Assembly (NCBI RefSeq): GCF_000003605.2
Contig: NW_003132176.1
Span: forward strand, 1-58,450
DNA length: 58,450 nt
From: Saccoglossus kowalevskii
Taxonomy: Eukaryota > Hemichordata > Enteropneusta > Harrimaniidae
Direction: 5' to 3'
The notes under the pieces are model-generated. The model saw nothing but the letters and a program-made list of their open reading frames with translations, did not search any database and was not told the origin of the DNA. The translations under genes were made by a program, and so were the position numbers. Below, piece by piece: positions 3,961-48,510 of this stretch (positions are counted from its first letter, which is position 1; every line of letters begins with the position of its first letter).

Positions 3961-4045
3961 TAGTGAAGCGTAGTTTATTCTGATGTCCTGAATTAGTGAA
4001 AGCGTAGTTTATTCTGATGTCCTGAATTAGTAAATAGTAGTTTAT
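3961..4045. other. Patch of homopolymer losses Q2
   Basis: At least four single-base losses in three adjacent units (GTGAAGCG, GTAGTTTATT twice, GTAAATAGTAGTTT). All fall in the AAA or GG runs of the monomer. Confidence 0.6.
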
Positions 4046-4769
4046 TCTGATGTCCTGAATTAGTGAAAGCGTAGGTTTATTCTGATGTCCTGAATTAGTG
4101 AAATAGTAGGTTTATTCTGATGTCCTGAATTAGTGAAATAGTAGGTTTATTCTGATGTCCTGAATTAGGGAAAGCGTAGGTTTATTCTGATGTCCTGAAT
4201 TAGTGAAAGCGTAGGTTTATTCTGATGTCCTGAATTAGTGAAATAGTAGGTTTATTCTGATGTCCTGAATTAGTGAAAGCGTAGGGTCATTCTGATGTCC
4301 TGAATTAGTGAAATTGTAGGTTTATTCTGATGTCGTGAATTAGTGAAAGCGTAGGTTTATTCTGATGTCCTGAATTAGTAAAATAGTAGGTTTATTCTGA
4401 TGTCCTGAATTAGTGAAAGCGTAGGTTTATTCTGATGTCCTGAATTAGTGAAAGCGTAGGTTTATTCTGATGTCCTGAATTAGTGAAATAGTATGTTTAT
4501 TCTGATGTCCTGAATTAGTGAAAGAGTAGGTTTATTCTGATGTCCTGAATTAGTGAAAGCGTAGGGTCATTCTGATGTCCTGAATTAGTGAAAGCGTAGG
4601 TTTATTCTGATGTTCTGAATTAGTGAAAGCGTAGGGTCATTCTGATGTCCTGAATTAGTGAAAGCGTAGGTTTATTCGAATGTCCTGAATTAGTGAAAGC
4701 GTAGGTTTATTCTAATGTCCTGAATTAGTGAAAACGTAGGTTTATTCTGATGTCCTGAATTAGTGAAAG

Positions 4770-4970
4770 CGTAGTTTAGTCTGATGTCCTGAATTAGTGA
4801 AGCGTAGTTTATTCTGATGTCCTGAAATAGTGAAAGCGTAGTTTATTCTGATGTCCTGAATTAGTAAAGCGTAGCCTTATTCTGATGTCCTGAATAGTGA
4901 AAGCATAGGGGTCATTCTGATATCTGAATTAGTGAAAGCGTAGGTTTATTCTGATGTCCCGAAATTAGTG
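4770..4970. other. Patch of homopolymer losses and odd indels Q3
   Basis: Six consecutive units carry one-base changes: GTAGTTTAGT, GTGAAGCG, CTGAAATAG, GTAAAGCG, TAGCCTTATT, CTGAATAGTG, GATATCTG and CCCGAAATT. The underlying order (TTTAGTC, ..., AGCTTTA, ATAGGGGTC with GATATCC) is that of cassette C, which is clean at 9896-10141. This is therefore a C-like tract with a corrupted sequence. Confidence 0.65.
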
Positions 4971-5380
4971 AAAGTGTAGGTTTATTCTGATGTCCTGAAT
5001 TAGTGAAAGCGTAGGTTTATTCTGATGTCCTGAATTAGTGAAAGCGTAGGTTTATTCTGATGTCCTGAATTAGTGAAAGCGTAGGTTTATTCTGATGTCC
5101 TGAATTAGTGAAAGCGTAGGTTTATTCTGATGTCCTGAATTAGTGAAAGCGTTGGTTTATTCTGATGTCCTGAATTAGTGAAAGCGTAGGGTCATTCTGA
5201 TGTCCTGAATTAGGGAAAGCGTAGGTTTATTCTGATGTCCTGAATTAGTGAAAGCGTAGGTTTATTCTGATGTCCTGAATTAGTGAAAGCGTAGGGTCAT
5301 TCTGATGTCCTGAATTAGTGAAAGCGTAAGTTTATTCTGATGTCCTGAATTAGTGAAAGCGTAGGTTTATTCTGATGTCC

Positions 5381-5486
5381 TGAATTAGTGAAATAGTAGG
5401 TTTATTTCTGATGTCCTGAATTAGTGAAATAGTAGGTTTATTCTGATGTCCTGAATTAGAGAAAACGTAGGGTCCTTCTGATGTCC
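5381..5486. repeat. Cassette K tail (36-bp unit, AAATAG, AAAACG)
   Basis: Only the last three units of K are present. The 36-bp unit is AAATAG type and the last reads TTAGAGAAAACG with GGGTCCTTC. An identical arrangement is at 29540-29645. Confidence 0.85.
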
Positions 5487-5695
5487 TGAATTAGTGAAAG
5501 CGTAGGGTCATTCTGATGTCCTGAATTAGTGAAAGCGTAGGTTTATTCTGATGTCCTGAATTAGTGAAAGCGTCGGTTAATTCTGATGTCCTGAATAAGT
5601 GAAAGCGTAGGTTTATTCTGATGTCCTGAATTAGTGAAAGCGTAGGTTTATTCTGATGTACTGAATTAGTGAAAGTGTAGTTTATTCTGATGTCC

Positions 5696-6255
5696 TGAAT
5701 TAGTGAAAGCGTAGGTTTATTCTGATGTCCTGAATTAGTGAAAGCGTAGGGTCATTCTGATGTCCTGAATTAGTGAAAGCGTAGGTTTATTCTGATGTCC
5801 TGAATTAGTGAAAGCGTAGGGTCATTCTGATGTCCTGAATTAGTGAAAGCGTAGGTTTATTCTGATGTCCTGAATTAGTGAAAGCGTAGGTTTATTCTGA
5901 TGTCCTGAATTAGTGAAAGCGTAGGGTCATTCTGATGTCCTGAATTAGTGAAAGCGTAGGTTTATTCTGATGTCCTGAATTAGTGAAAGCGTAGGGTCAT
6001 TCTGATGTCCTGAATTAGTGAAAGCGTAGGTTTATTCTGATGTCCTGAATTAGTGAAAGCGTAGGTTTATTCTGATGTCCTGAATTAGTGAAATAGTAAG
6101 TTTATTCTGATGTCCTGAATTAGTGAAAGCGTAGAGTCATGCTGATGTCCTGAATTAGTGAAAGCGTAGGTTTATTCTCATGTCCTGAATTAGTGAAAGC
6201 GTAAGTTTATTCTGATGTCCTGAATTAGTGAAAGTGTAGGTATATTCTGATGTCC
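5696..6255. repeat. Duplicated block VI, copy 1 (560 bp)
   Basis: Plain and GGGTCA units alternate, followed by an AAATAGTAAG unit and the rare markers GTAGAGTCATGCTG, TATTCTCATG and GTGTAGGTATATT. The same order is at 21947-22506, a constant offset of 16,251 bp across the 560 bp. Confidence 0.85.
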
Positions 6256-6535
6256 TGAATTAGTGAAAGCGCAGGTTTATTCTGATGTCCTGAATTAGTG
6301 AAATAGTATGTTTATTATGATGTCCTGAATTAGTGAAAGCGTAGGTTTATTCTGATGTCCTGAATTAGTGAAAGCGTAGGTTTATTCTGATGTCCTGCAT
6401 TAGTGAAAGCGTAGGTTTATTCTGATGTTCTGAATTAGTGAAATAGTAGGTTTATTCTGATGTCCTGAATTAGTGAAAGCGTAGGTTTATTCTGATGTCC
6501 TGAATTAGTGAAAGCGTAGGTTTATTCTGATGTCC

Positions 6536-6781
6536 TAAATTAGTGAAAGAGTAGGTTTATTCTGATGTCCTAAATTAGTGAAAGCGTAGGTTTATTCTGA
6601 TGTCCCGAATTAGTGAAATAGTATGTTTATTCTGATGTCCTGAATTAGTGAAAGCGTAGGTTTATTCTAATGTCCTGAATTAGTGAAAGCGTAGGTTTAT
6701 TTCTGATGTCCTGAATTAGTGAAATAGTAGGTTTATTCTGATGTCCTGAATTAGTGAAAACGTAGGGTCATTCTGATGTCC
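6536..6781. repeat. Cassette K, copy 3
   Basis: Full seven-unit copy with TATG and the GGGTCATTC ending. It follows an E pair (TGCATT at 6396) by two plain units, as at 14942, 19321 and 39839. Confidence 0.9.
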
Positions 6782-6989
6782 TGAATTAGTGAAAGCGTAG
6801 GTTTATTCTGATGTCCTGAATTAGTGAAATAGTAGGTTTATTCTGATGTCCTGAATTAGTGAAATAGTAGGTTTATTCTGATGTCCTGAATTAGGGAAAG
6901 CGTAGGTTTATTCTGATTTCCTGAATTAGTGAAAGCGTAGGTTTATTCTGATGTCCTGAATTAGTGAAATAGTAGGTTTATTCTGATGT

Positions 6990-7520
6990 CCTGAATTAGT
7001 GAAAGCGTAGGGTCATTCTGATGTCCTGAATTAGTGAAAGCGTAGGGTCATTCTGATGTCCTGAATTAGTGAAAGCGTAGGTTTATTCTGATGTCCTGAA
7101 TTAGTGAAAGCGTAGGGTCATTCTGATGTCCTGAATTAGTGAAAGCGTAGGTTTATTCTGATGTCCTGAATTAGTGAAAGCGTAGGGTCATTCTGATGTC
7201 CTGAATTAGTGAAAGCGTAGGTTTATTCTGATGTCGTGAATTAGTGAAAGCGTAGGTTTATTCTGATGTCCTGAATTAGTGAAATAGTAAGTTTATTCTG
7301 ATGTCCTGAATTAGTGAAAGCGTAGGGTCATTCTGATGTCCTGAATTAGTGAAAGCGTAGGGTTATTCTCATGTCCTGAATTAGTGAAAGCGTAAGTTTA
7401 TTCTGATATCCTGAATTAGTGAAAGTGTAGTTTATTCTGATGTCCTGAATTAGTGAAAGCGCAGTTTATTCTGATGTCCTGAATTAATGAAATAGTATGT
7501 TATATGATGTCCTGATTAGT
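6990..7520. repeat. Duplicated block VII, copy 1
   Basis: The order is GGGTCA twice, then plain and GGGTCA alternating, GTCGTGAATT, AAATAGTAAG, GGGTCA, a GGGTTATTCTCATG unit, GCGTAAG with GATATCC, a GTG unit, a GCGCAG unit and AAATAGTATG. It matches about 39100-39640. The final 90 bases are corrupted here (Q4) but clean in the other copy. Confidence 0.75.
7425..7520. other. Patch of losses Q4
   Basis: Four units lose bases: GTGTAGTTTATT, GCGCAGTTTATT, TATGTTATATGATG and CCTGATTAG. The counterpart near 39530-39640 is intact. Immediately after the patch the unit order jumps to a different module (GCGTTGG, GGGTCA, TTAGGGAAAG). Confidence 0.65.
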
Positions 7521-7896
7521 GAAAGCGTAGGTTTATTCTGATGTCCTGAATTAGTGAAAGCGTTGGTTTATTCTGATGTCCTGAATTAGTGAAAGCGTAG
7601 GGTCATTCTGATGTCCTGAATTAGGGAAAGCGTAGGTTTATTCTGATGTCCTGAATTAGTGAAAGCGTAGGTTTATTCTGATGTCCTGAATTAGTGAAAG
7701 CGTAGGGTCATTCTGATGTCCTGAATTAGTGAAAGCGTAAGTTTATTCTGATGTCCTGAATTAGTGAAAGCGTAGGTTTATTCTGATGTCCTGAATTAGT
7801 GAAATAGTAAGTTTATTCTGATGACCTGAATTAGTGAAAGCGTAGGGTCATTCTGATGTCCTGAATTAGTGAAAGCGTAGGTTTATTCTGATGTCC

Positions 7897-8071: not shown

Positions 8072-8282
8072 TAAATTAGTGAAAGCGTAGGTTTATTCTG
8101 ATGTCCCGAATTAGTGAAATAGTATGTTTATTCTGATGTCCTAAATTAGTGAAAGCGTAGGTTTAATCTGATGTCCTGAATTAGTGAAAGCGTAGGTTTA
8201 TTTCTGATGTCCTGAATTAGTGAAATAGTAGGTTTATTCTGATGTCCTGAATTAGTGAAAACGTAGGGTCCTTCTGATGTCC
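8072..8282. repeat. Cassette K, copy 4 (first unit missing, 211 bp)
   Basis: Begins at the TAAATT plain unit, runs through CGAATT/TATG, a TTTAATCTG unit and the 36-bp unit, and ends with AAAACG and GGGTCCTTC. Confidence 0.85.
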
Positions 8283-8949
8283 TGAATTAGTGAAAGCGTA
8301 GGGTCATTCTGATGTCCTGAATTAGTGAAAGCGTAGGTTTATTCTGATGTCCTGAATTAGTGATAGCGTCGGTTAATTCTGATGTCCTGAATAAGTGAAA
8401 GCGTAGGTTTATTCTGATGTCCTGAATTAGTGAAAGCGTAGGTTTATTCTGATGTACTGAATTAGTGAAAGTGTAGGTTTATTCTGATGTCCTGAATTAG
8501 TGAAAGCGTAGGTTTATTTTGATGTCCTGCATTAGTGAAAGCGTAGGTTTATTCTGATGTTCTGAATTAGTGAAATAGTAGGTTTATTCTGATGTCCTGA
8601 ATTAGTGAAAGCGTAGGTTTATTCTGATGTCCTGAATTAGTGAAAGCGTAGGTTTATTCTGATGTCCTGAATTAGTAAAAGCGTAGGTTTATTCTGATGT
8701 CCTGAATTAGTGAAAGCGTAGGTTTATTCTGATGTCCTGAATTAGTGAAAGCGTAGGTTTATTCTGATGTCATGAATTAGTGAAAGCGTAGGTTTATTCT
8801 GATGTCCTGAATTAGTGAAATAGTAAGTTTTATTCTGATGTCCTGAATTAGTGAAAGCGTTTGGTTTATTCTGATGTCCTGAATTAGTGTAAGCGTAGGT
8901 TTATTCTGATGTCCTGAATTAGTGAAAGCGTAGGTTTATTCTGATGTCC

Positions 8950-9195
8950 TGAATTAGTGAAAGAGTAGGTTTATTCTGATGTCCTAAATTAGTGAAAGCG
9001 TAGGTTTATTCTGATGTCCCGAATTAGTGAAATGGTATGTTTATTCTGATGTCCTAAATTAGTGAAAGCGTAGGTTTATTCTGATGTCCTGAATTAGTGA
9101 AAGCGTAGGTTTATTTCTGATGTCCTGAATTAGTGAAATAGTAGGTTTATTCTGATGTCCTGAATTAGTGAAAACGTAGGGTCCTTCTGATGTCC
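8950..9195. repeat. Cassette K, copy 5 (AAATGG/GGGTCC subfamily)
   Basis: Full copy with AAATGGTATG in the third unit and GGGTCCTTC at the end. It is followed by the same unit order as the 806-bp repeats at 35738 and 36860, up to 9721, where cassette C takes over in place of the 23rd unit. Confidence 0.9.
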
Positions 9196-9720
9196 TGAAT
9201 TAGTGAAAGCGTAGGTTTATTCTGATGTCCTGAATTAGTGAAATAGTAGGTTTATTCTGATGTCCTGAATTAGTGAAATAGTAGGTTTATTCTGATGTCC
9301 TGAATTAGTGAAAGCGTAGGTTTATTCTGATGTCCTGAATTAGTGAAAGCGTAGGTTTATTCTGATGTCCTGAATTAGTGAAATAGTAGGTTTATTCTGA
9401 TGTCCTGAATTAGTGAAAGCGTAGGGTCATTCTGATGTCCTGAATTAGTGAAAGCGTAGGTTTATTCTGATGTCCTGAATTAGTGAAAGCGTAGGTTTAT
9501 TCTTATGTCCTGAATTAGTAAAATAGTAGGTTTATTCTGATGTCCTGAATTAGTGATAGCGTAGGTTTATTCTGATGTCCTGAATTAGTGAAAGCGTAGG
9601 TTTATTCTGATGTCCTGAATTAGTGAAATAGTAGGTTTATTCTGATGTCCTGAATTAGTGAAAGCGTAGGGTCATTCTGATGTCCTGAATTAGTGAAAGC
9701 GTAGGTTTATTCTGATGTCC

Positions 9721-10141
9721 TGAATTAGTGAAAGCGTCGGTTAATTCTGATGTCCTGAATTAGTGAAAGCGTAGGGTCATTCTGATGTCCTGAATTCGTG
9801 AAAGCGTAGGTTTATTCTAATGTCCAGAATTAGTGAAAGCGTAGGTTTATTCTAATGTCCTGAATTAGTGAAAACGTAGGTTTATTCTGATGTCCTGAAT
9901 TAGTGAAAGCGGAGGTTTAGTCTGATGTCCTGAATTAGTGAAAGCGTATGGTCATTCCGATGTCCTGAATTAGTGAAAGCGTAGGTTTATTCTGATGTCC
10001 TGAATTAGTGAAAGCGTAGCTTTATTCTGATGTCCTGAATTAGTGAAAGCATAGGGGTCATTCTGATATCCTGAATTAGTGAAAGCGTAGGTTTATTCTG
10101 ATGTCCTGAATTAGTGAAAGTGTAGGTTTATTCTGATGTCC
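9721..10141. repeat. Cassette C, copy 1 (12 units, 421 bp)
   Basis: Defines cassette C: GCGTCGGTTAATTC; GGGTCA; GAATTCGTG start with CTAATG; plain with CTAATG; AAAACG; GCGGAGG with TTTAGTC; GCGTATGGTCA; plain; GTAGCTTTA; 36-bp ATAGGGGTCA with GATATCC; plain; GTG type. This copy shares a CCAGAATT start in unit 4 and TCATTCCGATG with the copy at 29716. The restriction-type hexamer GAATTC is at 9792. Confidence 0.9.
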
Positions 10142-17219: not shown

Positions 17220-17454
17220 TGAATTAGTGAAATAGTAGGTTTATTCTGATGTCCTGAATTAGTGAAAGCGTAGGTTTATTCTGATGTCCTGAATTAGTGA
17301 AAGCGTAGGTTTATTCTGATGTTCTGAATTAGTGAAAGCGTAGGTTTATTCTGATGTCCTGAATTGGTAAAATAGTAGGTTTATTCTGATGTCCTGAATT
17401 AGTGAAAACGTAGGTTTATTCTGATGTACTGAATTAGTGAAAGCGGAGGTTTAG

Positions 17455-17585
17455 TCTGATGTCTGAATTAGTGAAAGCGTAGGGTCATTTCTGATGTCCT
17501 GAATTAGTGAAAGCGTAGTTTATTCTGATGTCCCTGAATTAGTGAAAGCGTAGGTTTATTCTGATGTCCTGAATTAGTCGAAAGA
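17455..17585. other. Patch of one-base gains and losses Q5
   Basis: GATGTCTG, TCATTTCTG, GCGTAGTTTATT, GTCCCTG and AGTCGAAAG fall within four units. The paralogous tracts at 24740-24870 and 28024-28150 are clean at all these places. Confidence 0.65.
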
Positions 17586-19320
17586 GTAGGTTTATTCTGA
17601 TGTCCTGAATTAGTGAAAGCGCAGGTTTATTCTGATGTCCTGAATTAGTGAAAGCATAGGGGTCATTCTGATGTCCTGAATTAGTGAAAGCGTAGGTTTA
17701 TTCTGATGTCCTGAATTAGTGAAAGTGTAGGTTTATTCTGATGTCCTGAATTAGTGAAAGCGTAGGTTTATTCTGATGTCCTGAATTAGTGAAAACGTAG
17801 GTTTATTCTGATGTCCTGAATTAGTGAAAGCGTAGGTTTATTCTGATGTCCTGAATTAGTGAAAGCGTAGGTTTATTCTGATGTCCTGAATTAGTGAAAG
17901 CGTTGGTTTATTCTGATGTCCTGAATTAGTGAAAGCGTAGGGTCATTCTGATGTCCTGAATTAGTGAAAGCGTAGGTTTATTCTGATGTCCTGAATTAGT
18001 GAAAGCGTAGGTTTATTCTGATGTCCTGAATTAGTGAAAGCGTAGGTTTATTCTGATGTCCTGAATTAGTGAAAGCGTAGGTTTATTCTGATGTCCTGAA
18101 TTAGTGAAAGCGTTGGTTTATTCTGATGTCCTGAATTAGTGAAAGCGTAGGGTCATTCTGATGTCCTGAATTAGTGAAAGCGTAGGTTTATTCTGATGTC
18201 CTGAGTTAGTGAATGCGTAGGGTCATTCTGATGTCCTGAATTAGTGAAAGCGTAGGTTTATTCTGATGTCCAGAATTAGTGAAAACGTAGGTTTATTCTG
18301 ATGTCCTGAATTAGTGAAATAGTAGGTTTATTCTGATGTCCTGAATTAGTGAAAGCGTAGGTTTATTCTGATGTCCTGAATTAGTGAAAGCGTTGGTTTA
18401 TTCTGATGTCCTGAATTAGTGAAAGCGTAGGGTCATTCTGATGTCCTGAATTAGTGAAAGCGTAGGTTTATTCTGATGTCCTGAATTAGTGAAAGCGTAG
18501 GTTTATTCTGATGTCCTGAATTAGTGAAAGCGTAGGTTTATTCTGATGTCCTGAATTAGTGAAAGCGTAGGTTTATTCTGATGTCCTGAATTAGTGAAAG
18601 CGTTGGTTTATTCTGATGTCCTGAATTAGTGAAAGCGTAGGGTCATTCTGATGTCCTGAATTAGTGAAAGCGTAGGTTTATTCTGATGTCCTGAATTAGT
18701 GAAATAGTAAGTTTATTCTGATGTCCTGAATTAGTGAAAGCGTAGGGTCATTCTGATGTCCTGAATTAGTGAAAGCGTAGGTTTATTCTGATGTCCTGAA
18801 TTAGTGAAAGCGTAGGTTTATTCTGATGTCCTGAATTAGTGAAAGTGTAGGTTTATTCTGATGTCCTGAATTAATGAAAGCGCAGTTTATTCTGATGTCC
18901 TGAATTAGTGAAAGCGTAGGGTCATTCTGATGTCCTGAATTAGTGAAAGCGTAGGTTTATTCTGATGTCCTGAATTAGTGAAAGCGTAGGGTCATTCTGA
19001 TGTCCTGAATTAGTGAAAGTGTAGGTTTATTCTGATGTCCTGAATTAGTGAAAGCGCAGGTTTATTCTGATGTCCTGAATTAGTGAAATAGTATGTTTAT
19101 TATGATGTCCTGAATTAGTGAAAGCGTAGGTTTATTCTGATGTCCTGAATTAGTGAAAGCGTAGGTTTATTCTGATGTCCTGCATTAGTGAAAGCGTAGG
19201 TTTATTCTGATGTTCTGAATTAGTGAAATAGTAGGTTTATTCTGATGTCCTGAATTAGTGAAAGCGTAGGTTTATTCTGATGTCCTGAATTAGTGAAAGC
19301 GTAGGTTTATTCTGATGTCC

Positions 19321-20722: not shown

Positions 20723-20966
20723 TAAATTAGTGAAAGAGTAGTTTATTCTGATGTCCTAAATTAGTGAAAGCGTAGTTTATTCTGATGTCCCGAATTAGTG
20801 AAATAGTATGTTTATTCTGATGTCCTGAATTAGTGAAAGCGTAGGTTTATTCTAATGTCCTGAATTAGTGAAAGCGTAGGTTTATTTCTGATGTCCTGAA
20901 TTAGTGAAATAGTAGGTTTATTCTGATGTCCTGAATTAGTGAAAACGTAGGGTCATTCTGATGTCC
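20723..20966. repeat. Cassette K, copy 13 (two bases short)
   Basis: Full seven units, but the first two read GTAGTTTATT, each lacking one G. An isolated CGAATT/TATG unit lies just upstream, near 20618. Confidence 0.88.
20735..20780. other. Patch of homopolymer losses Q6
   Basis: Two successive GG to G losses inside K copy 13. The other full K copies are not short at both sites. Confidence 0.5.
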
Positions 20967-22961: not shown

Positions 22962-23097
22962 TGAATTAGTGAAAGTGTAGGTTTATTCTGATGTCCTGAA
23001 TTAGTGAAAGCGCAGGTTTATCTGATGTCATGAATTAGTGAAATAGTATGTTTATTCTGATGTCTGAATTAGTTAAAGCGTAGGTTTATCTGATGTC
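22962..23097. repeat. Cassette B fragment, damaged
   Basis: Four units in the B order (GTG, GCGCAGG, CATGAATT with AAATAG/TATG, GTTAAAG), lacking the GTAAAAG unit and carrying several base losses. Confidence 0.75.
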
Positions 23098-23105
23098 TGA
23101 ATTAG
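23010..23105. other. Patch of losses Q7 at a module junction
   Basis: AGGTTTATCTG occurs twice and GATGTCTG twice, so at least four bases are lost in about 95. The order then jumps from cassette B to the middle of cassette C at 23098. Confidence 0.65.
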
Positions 23106-24499: not shown

Positions 24500-25760
24500 T
24501 GAATTAGTGAAATAGTAGGTTTATTCTGATGTCCTGAATTAGTGAAAGCGTAGGTTTATTCTGATGTCCTGAATTAGTGAAAGCGTAGGTTTATTCTGAT
24601 GTTCTGAATTAGTGAAAGCGTAGGTTTATTCTGATGTCCTGAATTAGTAAAATAGTAGGTTTATTCTGATGTCCTGAATTAGTGAAAACGTAGGTTTATT
24701 CTGATGTACTGAATTAGTGAAAGCGGAGGTTTAGTCTGATGTCCTGAATTAGTGAAAGCGTAGGGTCATTCTGATGTCCTGAATTAGTGAAAGCGTAGGT
24801 TTATTCTGATGTCCTGAATTAGTGAAAGCGTAGGTTTATTCTGATGTCCTGAATTAGTGAAAGAGTAGGTTTATTCTGATGTCCTGAATTAGTGAAAGCG
24901 CAGGTTTATTCTGATGTCCTGAATTAGTGAAAGCATAGGGGTCATTCTGATGTCCTGAATTAGTGAAAGCGTAGGTTTATTCTGATGTCCTGAATTAGTG
25001 AAAGTGTAGGTTTATTCTGATGTCCTGAATTAGTGAAAGCGTAGGTTTATTCTGATGTCCTGAATTAGTGAAAACGTAGGTTTATTCTGATGTCCTGAAT
25101 TAGTGAAAGCGTAGGTTTATTCTGATGTCCTGAATTAGTGAAAGCGTAGGTTTATTCTGATGTCCTGAATTAGTGAAAGCGTTGGTTTATTCTGATGTCC
25201 TGAATTAGTGAAAGCGTAGGGTCATTCTGATGTCCTGAATTAGTGAAAGCGTAGGTTTATTCTGATGTCCTGAATTAGTGAAAGCGTAGGTTTATTCTGA
25301 TGTCCTGAATTAGTGAAAGCGTAGGTTTATTCTGATGTCCTGAATTAGTGAAAGCGTAGGTTTATTCTGATGTCCTGAATTAGTGAAAGCGTTGGTTTAT
25401 TCTGATGTCCTGAATTAGTGAAAGCGTAGGGTCATTCTGATGTCCTGAATTAGTGAAAGCGTAGGTTTATTCTGATGTCCTGAATTAGTGAAAGCGTAGG
25501 GTTATTCTGATGTCCTGAATTAGTGAAAGCGTAGGGTCATTCTGATGTCCTGAATTAGTGAAAGCGTAGGTTTATACTGATGTCCTGAATTAGTGAAAGC
25601 GTAGGTTTATTCTGATGTCCTGAATTAGTGAAATAGTAAGTTTATTCTGATGTCCTGAATTAGTGAAAGCGTAGGGTCATTCTGATGTCCTGAATTAGTG
25701 AAAGCGTAGGTTTATTCTGATGTCCTGAATTAGTGAAAGCGTAGGTTTATTCTGATGTCC

Positions 25761-25963
25761 TGAATTAGTGAAAGTGTAGTTTATTCTGATGTCCTGAATT
25801 AATGAAGCGCAGTTTATTCTGATGTCCTGAATTATGAAAGCGGAGGGTCATTCTGATGTCCAGAATTAGTGAAGCGTAGTTTATTCTAATGTCCTGAATT
25901 AGTGAAAGCCTGGTTTATTCTAATGTCCTGAATTAGTGAAAGCGTAGGGTCATTCTGATGTCT
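25761..25963. repeat. Cassette D, copy 2 (203 bp, damaged)
   Basis: Complete D order (GTG; TTAATGAAAG with GCGCAGG; GCGGAGGGTCA; CCAGAATT with CTAATG; GCCTGGG; GGGTCA), but seven bases shorter than the intact copy at 26733-26942. The roughly 300 bp before it (GGGTTATTC, TTTATACTG, AAATAGTAAG) also match the region before copy 3. Confidence 0.85.
25775..25920. other. Patch of homopolymer losses Q8
   Basis: GTGTAGTTTATT, AATGAAGCGCAGTTTATT, GAATTATGAAAG, GTGAAGCGTAGTTTATT and GCCTGGTTTATT: seven bases missing relative to the paralogue at 26747-26905. The losses are mostly in GG and AAA runs. Just after it the order jumps to block V. Confidence 0.7.
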
Positions 25964-26100
25964 TGAATTAGTGAAAGCGTAGGTTTAGTCTGATGTACTG
26001 AATTAGTGAAAGCGTAGGTTTATTCTGATGTCCTGAATTAGTGAAAGCGCAGGTTTATTCTGATCCCTGAATTAGTGAAATCGTAGGTTTATTCTGATGT
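25964..26100. repeat. Fragment of block V
   Basis: TTTAGTC followed by GTACTG, plain, GCGCAGG with the 34-bp GATCCCTG junction, then AAATCG: the same series as 72-206, 41135 and 51390. It follows patch Q8 directly. Confidence 0.8.
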
Positions 26101-26732: not shown

Positions 26733-26942
26733 TGAATTAGTGAAAGTGTAGGTTTATTCTGATGTCCTGAATTAATGAAAGCGCAGGTTTATTCTGATGT
26801 CCTGAATTAGTGAAAGCGGAGGGTCATTCTGATGTCCAGAATTAGTGAAAGCGTAGGTTTATTCTAATGTCCTGAATTAGTGAAAGCCTGGGTTTATTCT
26901 AATGTCCTGAATTAGTGAAAGCGTAGGGTCATTCTGATGTCC
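26733..26942. repeat. Cassette D, copy 3 (full, 210 bp)
   Basis: Reference copy for cassette D. Unit 4 reads AAAGCG after its CCAGAATT start, as at 50271; copies 1, 4 and 5 read AAATCG there. Confidence 0.9.
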
Positions 26943-27109
26943 TGAATTAGTGAAAGCGTAGGTTTATTCTGATGTACTGAATTAGTGAAAGCGTAGGTTT
27001 ATTCTGATGTCCTGAATTAGTGAAATAGTAGGTTTATTCTGATGTCCTGAATTAGTGAAAGCGTAGGTTTATTCTGATGTCCTGAATTAGTGAAATAGTA
27101 GGTTTATTC

Positions 27110-27200
27110 TAATGTCACTGAATTAGTGAAAGCGTTGGTTTATTCTGATGTCCTTAAATTAGTGAAAGCGTAGGGTCATTCTGATGTCCCTGAAATTAGT
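27110..27200. other. Patch of one-base gains Q9
   Basis: ATGTCACTG, CCTTAAATT and GTCCCTGAAATT each gain one base. The similar tract at 50640-50720 is clean. Cassette B starts 27 bases later. Confidence 0.55.
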
Positions 27201-27226
27201 GAAAGCGTAGGTTTATTCTGATGTCC

Positions 27227-27576
27227 TGAATTAGTAAAAGCGTAGGTTTATTCTGATGTCCTGAATTAGTGAAAGTGTAGGTTTATTCTGATGTCCTGAA
27301 TTAGTGAAAGCGCAGGTTTATTCTGATGTCATGAATTAGTGAAATAGTATGTTTATTCTGATGTCCTGAATTAGTTAAAGCGTAGGTTTATTCTGATGTC
27401 CTGAATTAGTGAAAGCGTAGGTTGATTCTGATGTCCTGAATTAGTGAAATAGTAGGTTTATTATGATGTCCTGAATTAGTGAAAGCGTAGGTTTATTCTG
27501 ATGTCCTGAATTAGTGAAAGCGTAAGTTTATTCTGATGTCCTGAATTAGTGAAAGCGTAGGTTTATTCTGATGTCC
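27227..27576. repeat. Cassette B, copy 5 (full, 350 bp)
   Basis: Ten units. The plain unit after GTTAAAG ends GGTTGATTC, a mark shared only with the copy at 41659. Confidence 0.9.
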
Positions 27577-27787: not shown

Positions 27788-28733
27788 TGAATTAGTGAAA
27801 TAGTAGGTTTATTCTGATGTCCTGAATTAGTGAAAGCGTAGGTTTATTCTGATGTCCTGAATTAGTGAAAGCGTAGGTTTATTCTGATGTTCTGAATTAG
27901 TGAAAGCGTAGGTTTATTCTGATGTCCTGAATTAGTAAAATAGTAGGTTTATTCTGATGTCCTGAATTAGTGAAAACGTAGGTTTATTCTGATGTACTGA
28001 ATTAGTGAAAGCGGAGGTTTAGTCTGATGTCCTGAATTAGTGAAAGCGTAGGGTCATTCTGATGTCCTGAATTAGTGAAAGCGTAGGTTTATTCTGATGT
28101 CCTGAATTAGTGAAAGCGTAGGTTTATTCTGATGTCCTGAATTAGTGAAAGCGTAGGTTTATTCTGATGTCCTGAATTAGTGAAAGCGCAGGTTTATTCT
28201 GATGTCCTGAATTAGTGAAAGCATAGGGGTCATTCTGATGTCCTGAATTAGTGAAAGCGTAGGTTTATTCTGATGTCCTGAATTAGTGAAAGTGTAGGTT
28301 TATTCTGATGTCCTGAATTAGTGAAAGCGTAGGTTTATTCTGATGTCCTGAATTAGTGAAAGCGTAAGTTTATTCTGATGTCCTGAATTAGTGAAATAGT
28401 AGGTTTATTCTGATGTCCTGAATTAGTGAAAGCGTAGGGTCATTCTGATGTCCTGAATTAGTGAAAGCGTAGGTTTATTCTGATGTCCTGAATTAGTGAA
28501 AGCGTAGGTTTATTCTTATGTCCTGAATTAGTAAAATAGTAGGTTTATTCTGATGTCCTGAATTAGTGATAGCGTAGGTTTATTCTGATGTCCTGAATTA
28601 GTGAAAGCGTAGGTTTATTCTGATGTCCTGAATTAGTGAAATAGTAGGTTTATTCTGATGTCCTGAATTAGTGAAAGCGTAGGGTCATTCTGATGTCCTG
28701 AATTAGTGAAAGCGTAGGTTTATTCTGATGTCC

Positions 28734-31258: not shown

Positions 31259-31339
31259 TGAATTAGTGAAAGCGTAGGTTTATTCTGATGTCCTGAATTA
31301 GTGAAAGCGTAGGTTTATTCTGATGTCCTGAATTAGTGA

Positions 31340-31545
31340 AAGCGTAGTTTATTCTGATGTCCTGAATTAGTGAAAGCGTAGGTTTATTCTGATGTCCTGA
31401 ATTAGTGAAGCGTTGGTTTATTCTGATGTCCTGAATTATGAAAGCGTAGGGTCATTCTGATGTCCTGAATTAGGGAAGCGTAGGTTTATTCTGATGTCCT
31501 GAATTAGTGAAAGCGTAAGTTTATTCTGATGTCTGATTATTGAAA
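31340..31545. other. Patch of homopolymer losses Q10
   Basis: GCGTAGTTTATT, GTGAAGCGTTGG, GAATTATGAAAG, TTAGGGAAGCG and GTCTGATTATTG fall within six units. The same series after C copy 2 (11103-11310) is clean. At 31560 the order jumps to block IV, skipping the B + K part. Confidence 0.7.
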
Positions 31546-31559
31546 GCGTAGGGTCATTC

Positions 31560-32140
31560 TGATGTCCTGAATTAGTGAAATAGTAGGTTTATTCTGATGT
31601 CCTGAATTAGTGAAAGCGTAGGTTTATTCTGATGTCCTGAATTAGTGAAAGCGTAGGTTTATTCTGATGTTCTGAATTAGTGAAAGCGTAGGTTTATTCT
31701 GATGTCCTGAATTAGTAAAATAGTAGGTTTATTCTGATGTCCTGAATTAGTGAAAACGTAGGTTTATTCTGATGTACTGAATTAGTGAAAGCGGAGGTTT
31801 AGTCTGATGTCCTGAATTAGTGAAAGCGTAGGGTCATTCTGATGTCCTGAATTAGTGAAAGCGTAGGTTTATTCTGATGTCCTGAATTAGTGAAAGCGTA
31901 GGTTTATTCTGATGTCCTGAATTAGTGAAAGCGTAGGTTTATTCTGATGTCCTGAATTAGTGAAAGCGCAGGTTTATTCTGATGTCCTGAATTAGTGAAA
32001 GCATAGGGGTCATTCTGATGTCCTGAATTAGTGAAAGCGTAGGTTTATTCTGATGTCCTGAATTAGTGAAAGTGTAGGTTTATTCTGATGTCCTGAATTA
32101 GTGAAAGCGTAGGTTTATTCTGATGTCCTGAATTAGTGAA
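31560..32140. repeat. Duplicated block IV, partial copy
   Basis: AAATAG, plain, plain, TTCTGAATT, GTAAAATAG, AAAACG, GTACTG with GCGGAGG, through ATAGGGGTCA. The GTACTG marker at 31774 is exactly 3,780 bp (108 monomers) from the one at 27994. Confidence 0.85.
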
Positions 32141-33074: not shown

Positions 33075-34826
33075 TGAATTAGTGAAAGCGTAGGTTTATT
33101 CTGATGTCCTGAATTAGTGAAAGCGTAGGTTTAATCTGATGTCCTGAATTAGTGAAATAGTAGGTTAATTCTGATGTCCTGAATTAGTGAAAGCGTAGGG
33201 TCATTCTGATGTCCTGAATTAGTGAAAGCGTAGGTTTATTCTGATGTCCTGAATTAGTGAAAGCGTAGGTTTATTCTGATGTCCTGAATTAGTAAAATAG
33301 TAGGTTTATTCTGATGTCCTGAATTAGTGAAAGCGTAGGTTTATTCTGATGTCCTGAATTAGTGAAATAGTAGGTTTATTCTGATGTCCTGAATTAGTAA
33401 AAGCGTAGGGTCATTCTGATGTCCTGAATTAGTGAAAGCGGAGGTTCATTCTGATGTCCTAAATTAGTGAAAGCGTGGGTTTATTCTGATGTCCTGAATT
33501 AGTGAAAGCGTAGGGTCATTCTGATGTCCTGAATTAGTGAAAGCGTAGGTTTATTCTAATGTCCTGAATTAGTGAAAGCGTAGGTTTATTCTAATGTCCT
33601 GAATTAGTGAAAACGTAGGTTTATTCTGATGTCCTGAATTAGTGAAATCGGAGGTTTAGTCTGATGTCCTGAATTAGTGAAAGCGTAGGGTCATTCTGAT
33701 GTCCTGAATTAGTGAAAGCGTAGGGTTATTCTGATGTCCTGAATTAGTGAAAGCGTAGGTTTATTCTGATGTCCTGAATTAGTGAAAGCGTAGGTTTATT
33801 CTGATGTCCTGAATTAGTGAAAGCATAGGGGTCATTCTGATGTCCTGAATTAGTGAAAGCGTAGGTTTATTCTGATGTCCTGAATTAGTGAAAGCGTAGG
33901 GTCATTCTGATGTCCTGAATTATTGAAAGCGTTGGTTTATTCTGATGTCCTGAATTAGTGAAAGCGTTGGTTTATTCTGATGTCCTGAATTAGTGAAAGC
34001 GTATGTTTATTCTGATGTCCTGAATTAGTGAAAGCGTAGGTTTATTCTGATGTCCTGAATTAGTGAAAGCGTAGGTTTATTCTGATGTCCTGAATTAGTG
34101 AAAGCGTATGTTTATTCTGATGTCCTGAATTAGTGAAAGCGTAGATTTATTCTGATGTCCTGAATTAGTGAAAGCGTAGGGTCATTCTGATGTCCTGAAT
34201 TAGTGAAAGCGTAGGTTTATTCTGATGTCCTCAATTAGTGAAAGCGTAGGTTTATTCTGATGTCCTGAATTAGTGAAATAGTAGGTTTATTCTGATGTCC
34301 TGAATTAGTGAAAGCGTGAGGTCATTCTGATGTCCTGAATAAGTGAAAGCGTAGGTTTATTCTGATGTCCTGAATTAGTGAAAGCGTAGGTTTATTCTGA
34401 TGTACTGAATTAGTGAAAGTGTAGGTTTATTCTGATGTCCTGAATTAGTGAAAGCGTAGGTTTATTTTGATGTCCTGCATTAGTGAAAGCGTAGGTTTAT
34501 TCTGATGTCCTGAATTAGTGAAATAGTAGGTTTATTCTGATGTCCTGAATTAGTGAAAGCGTAGGTTTATTCTGATGTCCTGAATTAGTGAAAGCGTAGG
34601 TTTATTCTGATGTCCTGAATTAGTAAAAGCGTAGGTTTATTCTGATGTCCTGAATTAGTGAAAGCGTAGGTTTATTCTGATGTCCTGAATTAGTGAAATA
34701 GTAAGTTTTATTCTGATGTCCTGAATTAGTGAAAGCGTAGGTTTATTCTGATGTCCTGAATTAGTGAAAGCGTAGGTTTATTCTGATGTCCTGAATTAGT
34801 GAAAGCGTAGGTTTATTCTGATGTCC

Positions 34827-35071
34827 TGAATTAGTGAAAGAGTAGGTTTATTCTGATGTCCTAAATTAGTGAAAGCGTAGGTTTATTCTGATGTCCCGAA
34901 TTAGTGAAATAGTATGTTTATTCTGATGTCCTAAATTAGTGAAAGCGTAGGTTTAATCTGATGTCCTGAATTAGTGATGCGTAGGTTTATTTCTGATGTC
35001 CTGAATTAGTGAAATAGTAGGTTTATTCTGATGTCCTGAATTAGTGAAAACGTAGGGTCCTTCTGATGTCC
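34827..35071. repeat. Cassette K, copy 18
   Basis: TATG with GGGTCCTTC, an intermediate type. One base short: the 36-bp unit begins GTGATGCG. Counterpart of the copy at 54193. Confidence 0.88.
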
Positions 35072-35737
35072 TGAATTAGTGAAAGCGTAGGGTCATTCTG
35101 ATGTCCTGAATTAGTGAAAGCGTAGGTTTATTCTGATGTCCTGAATTAGTGAAAGCGTCGGTTAATTCTGATGTCCTGAATAAGTGAAAGCGTAGGTTTA
35201 TTCTGATGTCCTGAATTAGTGAAAGCGTAGGTTTATTCTGATGTACTGAATTAGTGAAAGTGTAGGTTTATTCTGATGTCCTGAATTAGTGAAAGCGTAG
35301 GTTTATTTTGATGTCCTGCATTAGTGAAAGCGTAGGTTTATTCTGATGTTCTGAAGTAGTGAAATAGTAGGTTTATTCTGATGTCCTGAATTAGTGAAAG
35401 CGTAGGTTTATTCTGATGTCCTGAATTAGTGAAAGCGTAGGTTTATTCTGATGTCCTGAATTAGTAAAAGCGTAGGTTTATTCTGATGTCCTGAATTAGT
35501 GAAATCGTAGGTTTATTCTGATGTCCTGAATTAGTGAAAGCGTAGGTTTATTCTGATGTCATGAATTAGTGAAAGCGTAGGTTTATTCTGATGTCCTGAA
35601 TTAGTGAAATAGTAAGTTTTATTCTGATGTCCTGAATTAGTGAAAGCGTAGGTTTATTCTGATGTCCTGAATTAGTGAAAGCGTAGGTTTATTCTGATGT
35701 CCTGAATTAGTGAAAGCGTAGGTTTATTCTGATGTCC

Positions 35738-35983
35738 TGAATTAGTGAAAGAGTAGGTTTATTCTGATGTCCTAAATTAGTGAAAGCGTAGGTTTATTCT
35801 GATGTCCCGAATTAGTGAAATGGTATGTTTATTCTGATGTCCTAAATTAGTGAAAGCGTAGGTTTATTCTGATGTCCTGAATTAGTGAAAGCGTAGGTTT
35901 ATTTCTGATGTCCTGAATTAGTGAAATAGTAGGTTTATTCTGATGTCCTGAATTAGTGAAAACGTAGGGTCCTTCTGATGTCC
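35738..35983. repeat. Cassette K, copy 19 (AAATGG/GGGTCC)
   Basis: Full. Starts the first 806-bp super-unit. Counterpart of 55105. Confidence 0.9.
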
Positions 35984-36543
35984 TGAATTAGTGAAAGCGT
36001 AGGTTTATTCTGATGTCCTGAATTAGAGAAATAGTAGGTTTATTCTGATGTCCTGAATTAGTGAAATAGTAGGTTTATTCTGATGTCCTGAATTAGTGAA
36101 AGCGTAGGTTTATTCTGATGTCCTGAATTAGTGAAAGCGTAGGTTTATTCTGATGTCCTGAATTAGTGAAATAGTAGGTTTATTCTGATGTCCTGAATTA
36201 GTGAAAGCGTAGGGTCATTCTGATGTCCTGAATTAGTGAAAGCGTAGGTTTATTCTGATGTCCTGAATTAGTGAAAGCGTAGGTTTATTCTTATGTCCTG
36301 AATTAGTAAAATAGTAGGTTTATTCTGATGTCCTGAATTAGTGATAGCGTAGGTTTATTCTGATGTCCTGAATTAGTGAAAGCGTAGGTTTATTCTGATG
36401 TCCTGAATTAGTGAAATAGTAGGTTTATTCTGATGTCCTGAATTAGTGAAAGCGTAGGGTCATTCTGATGTCCTGAATTAGTGAAAGCGTAGGTTTATTC
36501 TGATGTCCTGAATTAGTGAAAGCGTAGGTTTATTCTGATGTCC
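35738..36543. repeat. 806-bp super-unit (23 monomers), copy 1
   Basis: K followed by plain, TTAGAGAAATAG, AAATAG, plain x2, AAATAG, GGGTCA, plain, a TTCTTATG unit, GTAAAATAG, GTGATAGCG, plain, AAATAG, GGGTCA, plain x2. The length is 23 x 35 + 1. The next K starts exactly 806 bp later. Confidence 0.9.
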
Positions 36544-42008: not shown

Positions 42009-42114
42009 TGAATTAGTGAAAGAGTAGGTTTATTCAAGATGTCCTAAATTAGTGAAAGCGTAGGTTTATTCTGATGTCCCGAATTAGTGAAATAGTATGT
42101 TTATTCTGATGTCT
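42009..42114. repeat. Cassette K, copy 24 (first three units)
   Basis: Breaks off after the CGAATT/TATG unit. The first unit reads TATTCAAGATG, an odd insertion. What follows is a CTGAAATAG unit, GTAAAAG and a CTAATCCCTG junction, present twice in a row (from about 42110 and 42255). Confidence 0.85.
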
Positions 42115-45685: not shown

Positions 45686-47049
45686 TGAAATAGTGAAAGC
45701 GTAGGTTTATTCTGATGTCCTGAATTAGTAAAAGCGTAGGTTTATTCTAATCCCTGAATTAGTGAAAGCGTAGGTTTATTCTAATGTCCTGAATTAGTGA
45801 AATAGTAGGTTTATTCTGATGTCCTGAAATAGTGAAAGCGTAGGTTTATTCTGATGTCCTGAATTAGTGAAAGCGTAGGTTTATTCTGATGTCCTGAATT
45901 AGTGAAAGCGTAGGGTCATTCTGATGTCCTGAATTAGTGAAAGCGTTGTTGTATTCTGATGTCCTGAATTAGTGAAAACGTTGGTTTATTCTGATGTCCT
46001 GAATTAGTGAAAGCGTTGGTTTATTCTGATGTCCTGAATTAGTGAAAGCGTATGTTTATTCTAATGTCCTGAATTAGTGAAAGCGTAGGTTTATTCTGAT
46101 GTCCTGAATTAGTGAAAGCGTAGGGTCATTCTGATGTCCTGAATTATTGAAAGCGTTGGTTTATTCTGATGTCCTGAATTAGTGAAAGCGTTGGTTTATT
46201 CTGATGTCCTGAATTAGTGAAAGCGTATGTTTATTCTAATGTCCTGAATTAGTGAAAGCGTAGGTTTATTCTGATGTCCTGAATTAGTGAAAGCGTAGGA
46301 TTATTCTGATGTCCTGAATTAGTGAAAGCGTATGTTTATTCTGATGTCCTGAATTAGTGAAAGCGTAGGTTTATTCTGATGTCCTAGTTTAGTGAAAGCG
46401 TAGGGTCATTCTGATGTCCTGAATTAGTGAAAGCGTAGGTTTATTCTGATGTCCTGAATTAGTGAAAGCGTAGGTTTATTCTGATGTCCTGAATTAGTGA
46501 AATAGTAGGTTTATTCTGATGTCCTGAATTAGTGAAAGCGTAGGGTCATTCTGATGTCCTGAATAAGTGAAAGCGTAGGTTTATTCTGATGTCCTGAATT
46601 AGTGAAAGCGTAGGTTTATTCTGATGTACTGAATTAGTGAAAGTGTAGGTTTATTCTGATGTCCTGAATTAGTGAAAGCGTAGGTTTATTCTGATGTCCT
46701 GCATTAGTGAAAGCGTAGGTTTATTCTGATGTTCTGAATTAGTGAAATAGTAGGTTTATTCTGATGTCCTGAATTACTGAAAGCGTAGGTTTATTCTGAT
46801 GTCCTGAATTAGTGAAAGCGTAGGTTTATTCTGATGTCCTGAATTAGTGAAAGCGTAGGTTTATTCTGATGTCCTGAATTAGTGAAAGCGTAGGTTTATT
46901 CTGATGACATGAATTAGTGAAAGCGTAGGTTTATTCTGATGTCCTGAATTAGTGAAATAGTAAGTTTTATTCTGATGTCCTGAATTAGTGAAAGCGTAGG
47001 TTTAATCTGATGTCCTGAATTAGTGAATGCGTAGGTTTATTCTGATGTC

Positions 47050-47335
47050 CTTAATTAGTGAAAGAGTAGGTTTGTTTATTCTGATGTCCTAATTAGTGAA
47101 AGCGTAGTTTATTTTGATGTCCCGAATTAGTGAAATAGTATGTTTATTCTGATGTCCTAAATTAGTGAAAGCGTAGTTTATTCTGATGTCCTGAATTAGT
47201 GAAAGCGTAGTTTATTTCTGATGTCCTGAATTAGTGAAAGCGTAGGTTCATTCTGATGTCCTGAATAAGTGAAAGCGTAGGTTATTCTGATGTCTGAATT
47301 AGTGAAAGCGTAGGTTTATTCTGATGTCCCTGAAT
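47050..47335. other. Patch of losses and gains Q12
   Basis: The longest such patch: GGTTTGTTTATT, CCTAATTAG, GTAGTTTATT repeatedly, AGGTTATTCTG, GATGTCTG and GTCCCTG in about 285 bases. The order then changes to the GTG/TGCATT series. Confidence 0.7.
47051..47224. repeat. Cassette K, copy 27 (damaged)
   Basis: TTAATT start with GAG, a GGTTTGTTTATT insertion, CCTAATTAG, three GTAGTTTATT units and a 36-bp-type unit. The AAATAG and AAAACG units are absent. Confidence 0.75.
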
Positions 47336-47785
47336 TAGTGAAAGTGTAGGTTTATTCTGATGTCCTGAATTAGTGAAAGCGTAGGTTTATTCTGATGTCC
47401 TGCATTAGTGAAAGCGTAGGTTTATTCTGATGTTCTGAATTAGTGAAATAGTAGGTTAATTTAGATGTCCTGAATTAGTGAAAGCGTAGGTTTATTCTGA
47501 TGTCCTGAATTAGTGAAAGTGTAGGTTTATTCTGATGTCCTGAATTAGTGAAAGCGTAGGTTTATTCTGATGTCCTGAATTAGTGAAAGCGTAGGTTTAT
47601 TCTGATGTCCTAAATTAGTGAAAGCGTAGGTTTATACTGATGTCCTGAATTAGTGAAAGCGTTAGTTTATTCTGATGTCCTGAATTAGTGAAAGAGTAGG
47701 TTTATTCTGATGTCCTAAATTAGTGAAAGCGTAGGTTTATTCTGATGTCCCGAATTAGTGAAATAGTATGTTTATTCTGATGTCC
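47331..47785. repeat. 455-bp tandem repeat, unit 1 (13 monomers)
   Basis: GTG, plain, TGCATT, TTCTGAATT with AAATAG and GGTTAATTTAGATG, plain, GTG, plain x2, TAAATT with TTTATACTG, GCGTTAG, GAG, TAAATT, CGAATT/TATG. Repeated at once from 47786; a third copy of the series runs through 13400-13850. Confidence 0.88.
47681..47785. repeat. Cassette K, copy 28 (first three units)
   Basis: End of tandem unit 1. The K cassette is cut here by the start of the next 455-bp unit. Confidence 0.85.
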
Positions 47786-48275
47786 TAAATTAGTGAAAGT
47801 GTAGGTTTATTCTGATGTCCTGAATTAGTGAAAGCGTAGGTTTATTCTGATGTCCTGCATTAGTGAAAGCGTAGGTTTATTCTGATGTTCTGAATTAGTG
47901 AAATAGTAGGTTAATTTAGATGTCCTGAATTAGTGAAAGCGTAGGTTTATTCTGATGTCCTGAATTAGTGAAAGTGTAGGTTTATTCTGATGTCCTGAAT
48001 TAGTGAAAGCGTAGGTTTATTCTGATGTCCTGAATTAGTGAAAGCGTAGGTTTATTCTGATGTCCTAAATTAGTGAAAGCGTAGGTTTATACTGATGTCC
48101 TGAATTAGTGAAAGCGTTAGTTTATTCTGATGTCCTGAATTAGTGAAAAAGTAGGTTTATTCTGATGTCCTGAATTAGTGAAAAAGTAGGTTTATTCTGA
48201 TGTCCTAAATTAGTGAAAGCGTAGGTTTATTCTGATGTCCCGAATTAGTGAAATAGTATGTTTATTCTGATGTCC
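47786..48275. repeat. 455-bp tandem repeat, unit 2 (with one extra monomer)
   Basis: Starts with a TAAATT/GTG unit exactly 455 bp after 47331. The GAG unit has become AAAAAG and is present twice (48136 and 48171), a fresh one-monomer duplication, so this unit is 490 bp. Confidence 0.88.
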
Positions 48276-48416
48276 TAAATTAGTGAAAGCGTTGGTTTAT
48301 TCTGATGTCCTGACTTAGTGAAAGCGTAGGTTTATTTCTGATGTCCTGAATTAGTGAAATAGTAGGTTTATTCTGATGTCCTGAATTAGTGAAAACGTAG
48401 GGTCATTCTGATGTCC
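48171..48416. repeat. Cassette K, copy 29
   Basis: Full 246 bp. The first unit is AAAAAG, the fourth TAAATT with GCGTTGG, the fifth begins TGACTTAG, and it ends GGGTCATTC. Confidence 0.88.
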
Positions 48417-48429
48417 TGAATTAGTGAAA

Positions 48430-48510
48430 GCGTAGTTTATTCTGATGTCCTGAATTAGGGAATAGTAGGTTTATTCTGATGTCCTGAATTAGTGAAATAG
48501 TAGTTTATTC
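48430..48510. other. Patch of homopolymer losses Q13
   Basis: GCGTAGTTTATT, TTAGGGAATAG and ATAGTAGTTTATT: one base lost in each of three successive units. Shortly after, the order jumps to the GCGCAGG/ATAGGGGTCA part of block IV. Confidence 0.6.

Follow-up and report, generated by a model that had tools for sequence, protein, structure and literature searches.

The satellite array

The window, a stretch of 58,450 bp, is a complete contig within the 572-Mb assembly of Saccoglossus kowalevskii. It is filled from end to end by an array of 35-bp satellite units that are ~92% alike. Alignment of the whole window to the 35-bp consensus yields 1,670 monomers (the final one cut), 153 indels, and 2,135 substitutions. 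Complete monomers measure 33 to 36 bp, with a single exception of 39 bp. A scan of the window for open reading frames of at least 60 amino acids, tRNAs, and Rfam matches at the gathering score returned none. An exact 59-base pattern has 374 matches in the assembly, the same count as in the window. Exact 35-base and 22-base pieces of the unit have no match in viral_contigs or genome_contigs, blastn of positions 1 to 3000 against phages and plasmids is negative, six 14- to 17-base pieces of the unit (both strands) are absent from the literature searched, and a literature search for a 35-bp satellite gave no paper evidently about this unit.

The array is a mosaic of modules, with segments that average about 14 monomers (490 bp). 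A Sanger-length origin of this mosaic was set aside, since collinear stretches as long as 50 monomers are duplicated at 92% token identity.

Clusters of private indels

Four indels recur in the array and are mostly linked to particular modules (+T22, +G16, +A15, and G30-). Their exclusion leaves 74 private indel letters in 59 monomers across the window. When affected monomers no more than 3 monomers apart are grouped together, they form exactly 13 multi-monomer clusters and 10 single-monomer sites. This unbiased scan returns precisely the 13 patches that had been listed by a sequence-only reading of the contig (Table 1). Its description of clustered indels amid clean monomers holds as well: the patches carry 62 private letters in 56 monomers versus 12 in the 1,613 others. 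The affected monomers form 36 neighbouring pairs, compared with 6.0 expected and a maximum of 15 across 5,000 random placements. Private indels number 1.11 per monomer in the patches and 0.007 outside.

Table 1. Satellite array, indel patches, and related sites in the window
Feature	Positions	Strand	Description
35-bp satellite array	1-58450	+	Fills the whole contig
Patch 1	842-909		Two monomers; GG to G and AAA to AA; break at 910 (at 842 under the lowest penalty)
Patch 2	3957-4056		Three monomers; 5 deletions (3 GG to G); break at 4057 (right edge) or 4127 (two monomers on, reverse pass)
Patch 3	4757-4996		Seven monomers; 8 events; internal break at 4858
Patch 4	7413-7547		Four monomers with 5 deletions; forward pass puts the break at 7514, reverse pass at 7548
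Patch 5	17431-17606		Indels within a collinear module whose copies at 24711 and 27999 are clean; no break in six settings
Patch 6	20724-20791		Two monomers; two GG to G; no break in six settings
Patch 7	22998-23098		Three monomers; losses in T and C runs; breaks at the right edge and one monomer before the left edge
Patch 8	25762-25929		7 single-base deletions relative to the clean copy at 26734-26908; break at 25930 or 25965
Patch 9	27084-27227		Four monomers, one insertion apiece; internal break at 27120
Patch 10	31330-31568		Seven monomers; 6 deletions; break at the right edge (31569)
Patch 11	42010-42114		Three monomers; two events; break at the right edge (42115)
Patch 12	47052-47331		10 private indel letters spread over eight monomers; one break at 47052, another at 47228
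Patch 13	48418-48519		Three monomers; 3 deletions; break at 48520 (right edge) or 48555 (one monomer on)
Single GG to G loss	5663-5696		Immediately precedes an order break; small patch-like join
Single GG to G loss	18868-18901		Immediately precedes an order break
Single-monomer indel site	57770-57802		Immediately precedes an order break
Clean paralogue of patch 8	26734-26908		Control copy

The same reading portrayed the patches as losses, mostly of GG to G and AAA to AA. Losses do prevail, with 50 letters, but 12 inserted letters are also present, 3 of them from one 4-base duplication at 47052, and patch 9 contains insertions exclusively. GG to G is indeed the dominant change, affecting 21 of 48 GG runs, but AAA to AA is found in just 6 of 60 runs; CC to C occurs in 7 of 53 and a loss from TTT in 2 of 47. 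Altogether, 42 of the 50 lost letters sit in runs of two or more. The balance of deletions and insertions differs significantly between patches (p 0.0004), as expected if they stem from different reads; the strand heterogeneity of GG versus CC loss is nonsignificant (permutation p 0.20). Rare-substitution monomers are not clearly enriched in the patches (3 versus 1.9 expected), and substitutions relative to the mosaic source roughly double (0.30 per monomer versus 0.14 outside), so that substitutions are not raised in proportion to indels.

Private indels are shared with the module-matched copy in 2 of 52 cases, which form a single pair (18868 and 25796). The corresponding fractions are 68 of 71 for the recurrent indels and 174 of 210 for rare substitutions. 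Ten of the 13 patches consist entirely of 60-mers that occur once in the window; a minority of those in the remaining three patches recur. The seven-base shortfall that had been noted for patch 8 is exact: the patch and its clean paralogue differ by seven lost bases, and 14 identical monomers precede these differences. Indels set patch 5 apart from its two copies, apart from one substitution variant that only one of these copies has in common with it. The indels are clustered, private to one copy, and mostly run-length changes, as would be expected of an uncorrected single-read patch. A simple unrecognised overlap (local duplication) was considered for patch 8, whose clean copy lies 28 monomers downstream, and rejected, as the preceding segments mismatch.

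Module order at the patches

Depending on the pass, 8 to 11 of the 13 patches carry a break in module order, with about 4.6 expected. The forward pass finds a break in 11 patches (circular shifts average 4.6, and the fraction reaching 11 is 0.0006). Specifically, the break falls at the right edge of 7 patches, versus 0.91 expected and with none of 1,669 circular shifts as high, and at the left edge of one. In the reverse pass, 8 patches have a break, 5 at the right edge (p 0.0012) and 1 at the left, and three remaining breaks lie just beyond the right side of their patch, at a distance of one or two monomers. Detection bias is excluded by two controls: with the patches masked, a break is still found at 9 of 13 (none of 250 controls is as high), and simulated error patches have a mean of 4.5 breaks and a mean of 0.86 right-edge breaks, with none of 120 simulations reaching the real values.

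Of five order jumps proposed from the sequence alone, four have a break no more than about one monomer away (7514-7548, 23099, 25930-25965, and 31569). The fifth, at 47331, does not: the break closest to it lies three monomers before it (47228), and another is at 47052. Further breaks, unnamed in that proposal, accompany patches 1, 2, 3, 9, 11, and 13. At patches 5 and 6, all six settings leave the module order unbroken. Module order therefore breaks at the patches beyond chance, although not at 2 of the 13. At patch 7, the five best downstream paralogues all begin at the right edge. Where a break coincides with a patch edge, the indel tract lies mostly on the left side of the break, as a read-concatenation convention would predict.

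Most order breaks, 106 of 118, fall outside the patches; together with the two patches that have none, this indicates that the array is also genuinely mosaic. The lengths of the complete monomers show that joins keep the 35-bp phase, which is intact at every patch.

Origin of the patches

The best explanation, to which we assign a probability of roughly 0.7, is that the patches are uncorrected single-read sequence that survived in the consensus at points within the satellite array where reads were joined during assembly. The sequence-only reading had suggested joined low-quality read ends, and the indel-dominated spectrum, the non-inheritance, and the right-edge breaks support it. From these observations, along with the clustering and the preserved phase, we infer that the patches are read ends and that the overlaps there are false. 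One read would extend to its right-hand end, retaining local base-calling errors, chiefly GG called as G, and the following read would take over clean, often from a different module. False but phase-correct overlaps could pass because the units are about 92% alike. Against this reading count the unbroken order at patches 5 and 6, the many breaks outside the patches, the patch-free ends of the window, the modest replication in other contigs, and the doubled substitution differences in the patches. Most likely, the unit order across the patches is not to be trusted, and the breaks there are candidate mis-joins, none of which is singled out as wrong.

The Nippostrongylus brasiliensis MinION/Canu assembly provides a parallel: in the corrections described for it, single-base deletions make up 44% and exceed insertions tenfold (PMC5765664), and deletions exceed insertions here too. 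Unlike those errors, which were counted genome-wide over transcribed sequence, the ones in the window are confined to short patches beside breaks, and its substitutions are few, compared with 28% transitions in the figures given for N. brasiliensis (PMC5765664). In the human X centromere, as described, ambiguous placement in near-identical repeats harms the local consensus, and the order at some points is supported by one or two reads (PMC7484160). That array was resolved by ultra-long reads and unique markers (PMC7484160), whereas the analysis of the window covers the assembled sequence.

It is possible, though rather unlikely, that the indels are base-calling errors and the module order is right, the patches being real junctions at which correction failed because the reads covering them were too few or disagreed in structure (haplotype or individual differences). 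This would accommodate the errors in patches 5 and 6, the mosaic nature of the array outside the patches, and the phase, and in large repeats the quality of polishing is described as having suffered from ambiguous read placement (PMC7484160). It leaves unexplained why the errors lie to the left of the break, both here and, more weakly, elsewhere in the assembly. In eight other satellite contigs, the break falls at the right edge in 4 to 7 of 23 cases and at the left edge in 0 to 2, with about 2 expected for each; this right-edge excess is modest (p 0.0035 to 0.09 by setting) and weaker than that in the window. Such recurring one-sidedness fits an assembler convention.

Real, locally mutated junctions, made by error-prone synthesis such as break-induced replication with clustered frameshifts before a template switch, are very improbable. 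The breaks do follow the tracts directionally, and the spectrum reported for yeast is alike, being dominated by 1-bp deletions that mostly fall in runs of at least two (PMC3039667). The window indels, however, are far denser, affecting roughly 3% of the bases and 44% of the GG runs. The spontaneous mutation rate in yeast is very low. The reported increase over it goes up to 2,800-fold and is still seen at distances of 16 and 36 kb, beyond any short tract (PMC3039667), whereas the patches are short-range. Rare substitutions are not clearly raised in the patches, and the heritable change that such a mutation tract predicts in module copies is not seen: one pair aside, the private indels did not travel with their modules, whereas the recurrent indels did. 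Still less probable is a satellite repair polymerase that makes a 70- to 280-bp deletion-rich tract just before switching template to another module; each patch would then mark a recent exchange point, not yet copied. Old degenerate boundary monomers inherited in the array would place patches at cassette boundaries, where they are, but this already disfavoured idea is hardly credible given the uniqueness of the 60-mers in most patches, the clean other copies of the cassettes of patches 5 and 8, and indel recurrence that follows the site and not the module.

Satellite order is often treated as a record of unequal exchange; if the patches are read ends at joins, the most conspicuous boundaries here are the least trustworthy. 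Run-length indels that are private and lie to one side of a module break offer a read-free flag for suspect boundaries, applicable to the other satellite contigs of this assembly.

The two ends of the window carry no patch, and contig ends elsewhere (14 other contigs in the right-hand-end test) are mixed. Rare indels are absent from 8 of 17 contig starts and from 5 of 15 right-hand ends; among the remainder, several have one or two, a few have clusters, and some are uninterpretable. A suggestive cluster lies at the right end of contig C4600. Contig C2380 has indel clusters at both ends, with 5 and 6 rare indels per 300 bases versus 0.19 expected. At its end, GG to G affects the last 3 of 3 ATAAG(G)AATA sites, compared with 2 of 438 in the first 30 kb; these losses may represent a local inherited variant, since the ATGAGG sites between them are spared and their spacing is 59 bases.

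Array composition and inheritance of its variants

The window is a single unbroken tandem array of a 35-bp unit (1,669.5 copies, 92% match, 58,450 bases) and makes up the entire contig C2375 of the assembly (572,110,611 bases in 4,830 contigs). Within it, no open reading frame of at least 60 aa, no tRNA, and no Rfam match at the gathering score was found. An exact search for a 59-base pattern of the unit gave 374 hits assembly-wide, the same number as in the window; this pattern, matched exactly, is thus limited to this contig. Contigs that consist only of satellite, each differing in its repeat, seem to be very numerous in the assembly. From 24 sampled contig starts, 20 were readable (3- to 4-kb samples); in 15 of these, almost all of the sample is a single tandem array whose unit (20 to 280 bp) differs from contig to contig, 1 is partly tandem, and 4 are not tandem.

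Monomers and indels were defined by wraparound alignment of the window to the 35-bp consensus, which yielded 1,670 monomers, 153 indels, and 2,135 substitutions. Four recurrent indels (+T22, +G16, +A15, and G30-) were set apart, and all remaining indels were counted as private. The array plainly copies itself. The recurrent indels mostly travel with their modules, being common to module-matched copies in 68 of 71 cases open to testing, and serve well to mark cassette copying; rare substitutions are common to such copies in 174 of 210 cases. By comparison, a module-matched copy exists in the window for 52 private indels, and the indel is common to both copies in only 2 of them (one pair, 18868/25796). 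Patch indels thus do not behave as inherited changes.

Features of the array discussed in the text
Feature	Coordinates	Copy	Remarks
Patch 5	17431-17606	two copies, at 24711 and 27999
Patch 8	25762-25929	26734-26908	14 upstream monomers identical
Recurrent indels	2334, 3734, 5405, 6700, 8201, and others		+T22, 32 copies; +G16, 27; G30-, 11 plus the cut last monomer; +A15, 9
Longest collinear duplication	34512-36264	53878-55631	50 monomers, 92% token identity
Another of the longest collinear duplications	8073-9721	34863-36509	47 monomers, 85% token identity
39-bp monomer, start of patch 12	47052-47090		GTTT duplication; only complete monomer above 36 bp in the window
Possibly older or foreign array segment	50622-50900		5 of 8 monomers with variants unique in the window, one having lost a G (50832); no strong paralogue found on either side of 50832 within the window

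Clustering and spectrum of the private indels

A scan that grouped private indels independently of the sequence-only reading recovered exactly the 13 patches listed there, plus 10 single sites. The difference in density between the patches and the other monomers is confirmed, with 62 private indel letters in 56 patch monomers versus 12 in the 1,613 others. Neighboring monomers with private indels form 36 pairs (6.0 expected; maximum of 15 in 5,000 random placements). Rare substitutions in the same window are not significantly clustered (8 pairs versus 5.3 expected). A clean counterpart seven bases longer had been noted for patch 8, and compared with this copy the patch indeed lacks seven bases over five monomers and differs in nothing else; beyond the patch, each of the next two monomers carries one substitution, and then the two series diverge. 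Patch 5 differs from its copies in indels and has one variant in common with the copy at 24711 that is absent from the one at 27999.

The 62 patch letters comprise 50 losses and 12 insertions, 3 of the latter being part of one 4-base duplication. The losses had been characterized as mostly GG to G and AAA to AA. The first part holds, with 21 of 48 GG runs shortened inside patches, whereas only 6 of 60 AAA runs are, and CC runs are also affected (7 of 53), followed by TTT (2 of 47), TT (4 of 113), and AA (2 of 59); 8 deletions lie outside runs. Replication slippage is expected to favor longer A and T runs, which the patch losses do not. Monomers with rare substitutions number 3 inside patches (1.9 expected). 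Substitution differences to the best mosaic source rise from 0.14 per monomer outside patches to 0.30 inside, which is modest beside the rise in private indels, from 0.007 to 1.11, and probably due in part to misaligned indels.

Order breaks at the right edges of patches

In a copying model (Viterbi), each monomer was represented by its substitutions and recurrent indels and its source was traced elsewhere in the array, a change of source counting as a break. A penalty of 11 yields 118 breaks: 12 fall in patches and 106 outside. In the forward pass, 11 of the 13 patches hold a break (average of 4.6 in circular shifts, of which a fraction of 0.0006 reaches 11); the break falls exactly at the right edge in 7 patches (0.91 expected; 0 of 1,669 shifts reach 7) and at the left edge in 1 (0.92 expected). 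The reverse pass, which settles ties in the opposite direction, gives 8 patches with a break (P = 0.039), 5 at the right edge (P = 0.0012) and 1 at the left. Eleven patches, identical under all six settings, have their break inside or within 2 monomers to the right; the sequence-only reading had noted module changes right after several patches. Patches 5 and 6 (17455 and 20735) have no such break in any setting and resemble local errors that leave the order unchanged.

With the patch monomers masked, 9 of the 13 patches (all but 5, 6, 9, and 12) still hold a break, compared with 24% in controls (0 of 250 as high). Error patches simulated on clean sequence and passed through the whole pipeline gave a mean of 4.5 breaks, 0.86 of them at the right edge, and none of the 120 runs reached 11 breaks or 7 right-edge breaks. 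When the patch itself is ignored, the score for a collinear copy spanning it falls short of the control median for 12 of the 13 patches with flanks of 4, 6, and 8, patch 5 being the exception. The five monomers to the left of breaks contain 52 private indel letters and those to the right 28, against 26.1 expected on either side (P = 0.0018 for the left); a right-edge break is also present at 3 or 4 of the 10 single sites (0.65 to 0.78 expected).

Since complete monomers measure 33 to 36 bp, with a sole exception of 39 bp, the joins keep the 35-bp phase, 

Probable read ends and alternative explanations

The pattern is best accounted for by the earlier proposal of joined low-quality read ends, with the patches representing uncorrected single-read sequence at putative assembly joins. 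The assembler would carry such sequence to the right-hand end of one read, and the next read would continue past the right edge of the patch; as the units are ~92% alike, error-tolerant overlaps could be phase-correct yet module-wrong. Earlier papers already describe long-read consensus errors in which single-base deletions predominate (PMC5765664) and quality loss in large repeats through ambiguous placement (PMC7484160). NextDenovo, as an example of assembler behavior, is described (PMC11046930) as defining low-score regions in reads and breaking contigs at low-depth connection points.

The same analysis was applied to eight other satellite contigs, with C2379 left out for its many indels and C2374 for its shortness. 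Among their 23 clusters (those at stretch ends excluded), right-edge breaks number 4 to 7 and left-edge breaks 0 to 2, with ~2 expected for each (right-edge P = 0.0035 to 0.09, depending on the setting); 11 to 15 clusters have any break (8.4 to 10.2 expected; P = 0.015 to 0.16). Agreement on the side among contigs whose repeats are unrelated is better explained by a convention of the assembler than by the DNA itself. In the closest rival explanation, the base errors are real as errors and the order is right, a true junction having had too little or conflicting coverage, which leaves the one-sidedness unexplained. Real mutated junctions, as in break-induced replication, are unlikely, and the spontaneous base rate underlying a comparison with yeast is low. 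Yeast break-induced replication (PMC3039667) does yield 1-bp deletions in short runs, with an up to 2,800-fold rise that persists at 16 and 36 kb, but comes nowhere near the ~3% of bases within 70 to 280 bp seen in the patches.

Contig ends lend mixed support to the view that read ends carry such errors. The terminal 300 bases were compared in the window plus 14 other contigs for right-hand ends and plus 16 for starts; C3600, C500, and C4830 were too rich in misaligned bases to be judged. Of 17 starts, 8 are free of rare indels, as are 5 of the 15 right-hand ends; the window itself has none at its right end and, at its start, a single one of recurrent type. Excesses are seen at the right ends of C4600 (3 versus 0.51 expected) and C2370 (5 versus 1.4), in C2374 (5 versus 0.26, all in one short insertion), and at both ends of C2380 (5 and 6 versus 0.19). 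In C2380, the ATAAGGAATA site has a single G in 2 of 438 instances over the first 30 kb (these two share a cluster) versus all 3 of the last before the contig end. Both Gs are retained at the ATGAGG sites between these three losses, which are spaced 59 bases apart; the losses are therefore possibly a local inherited variant.
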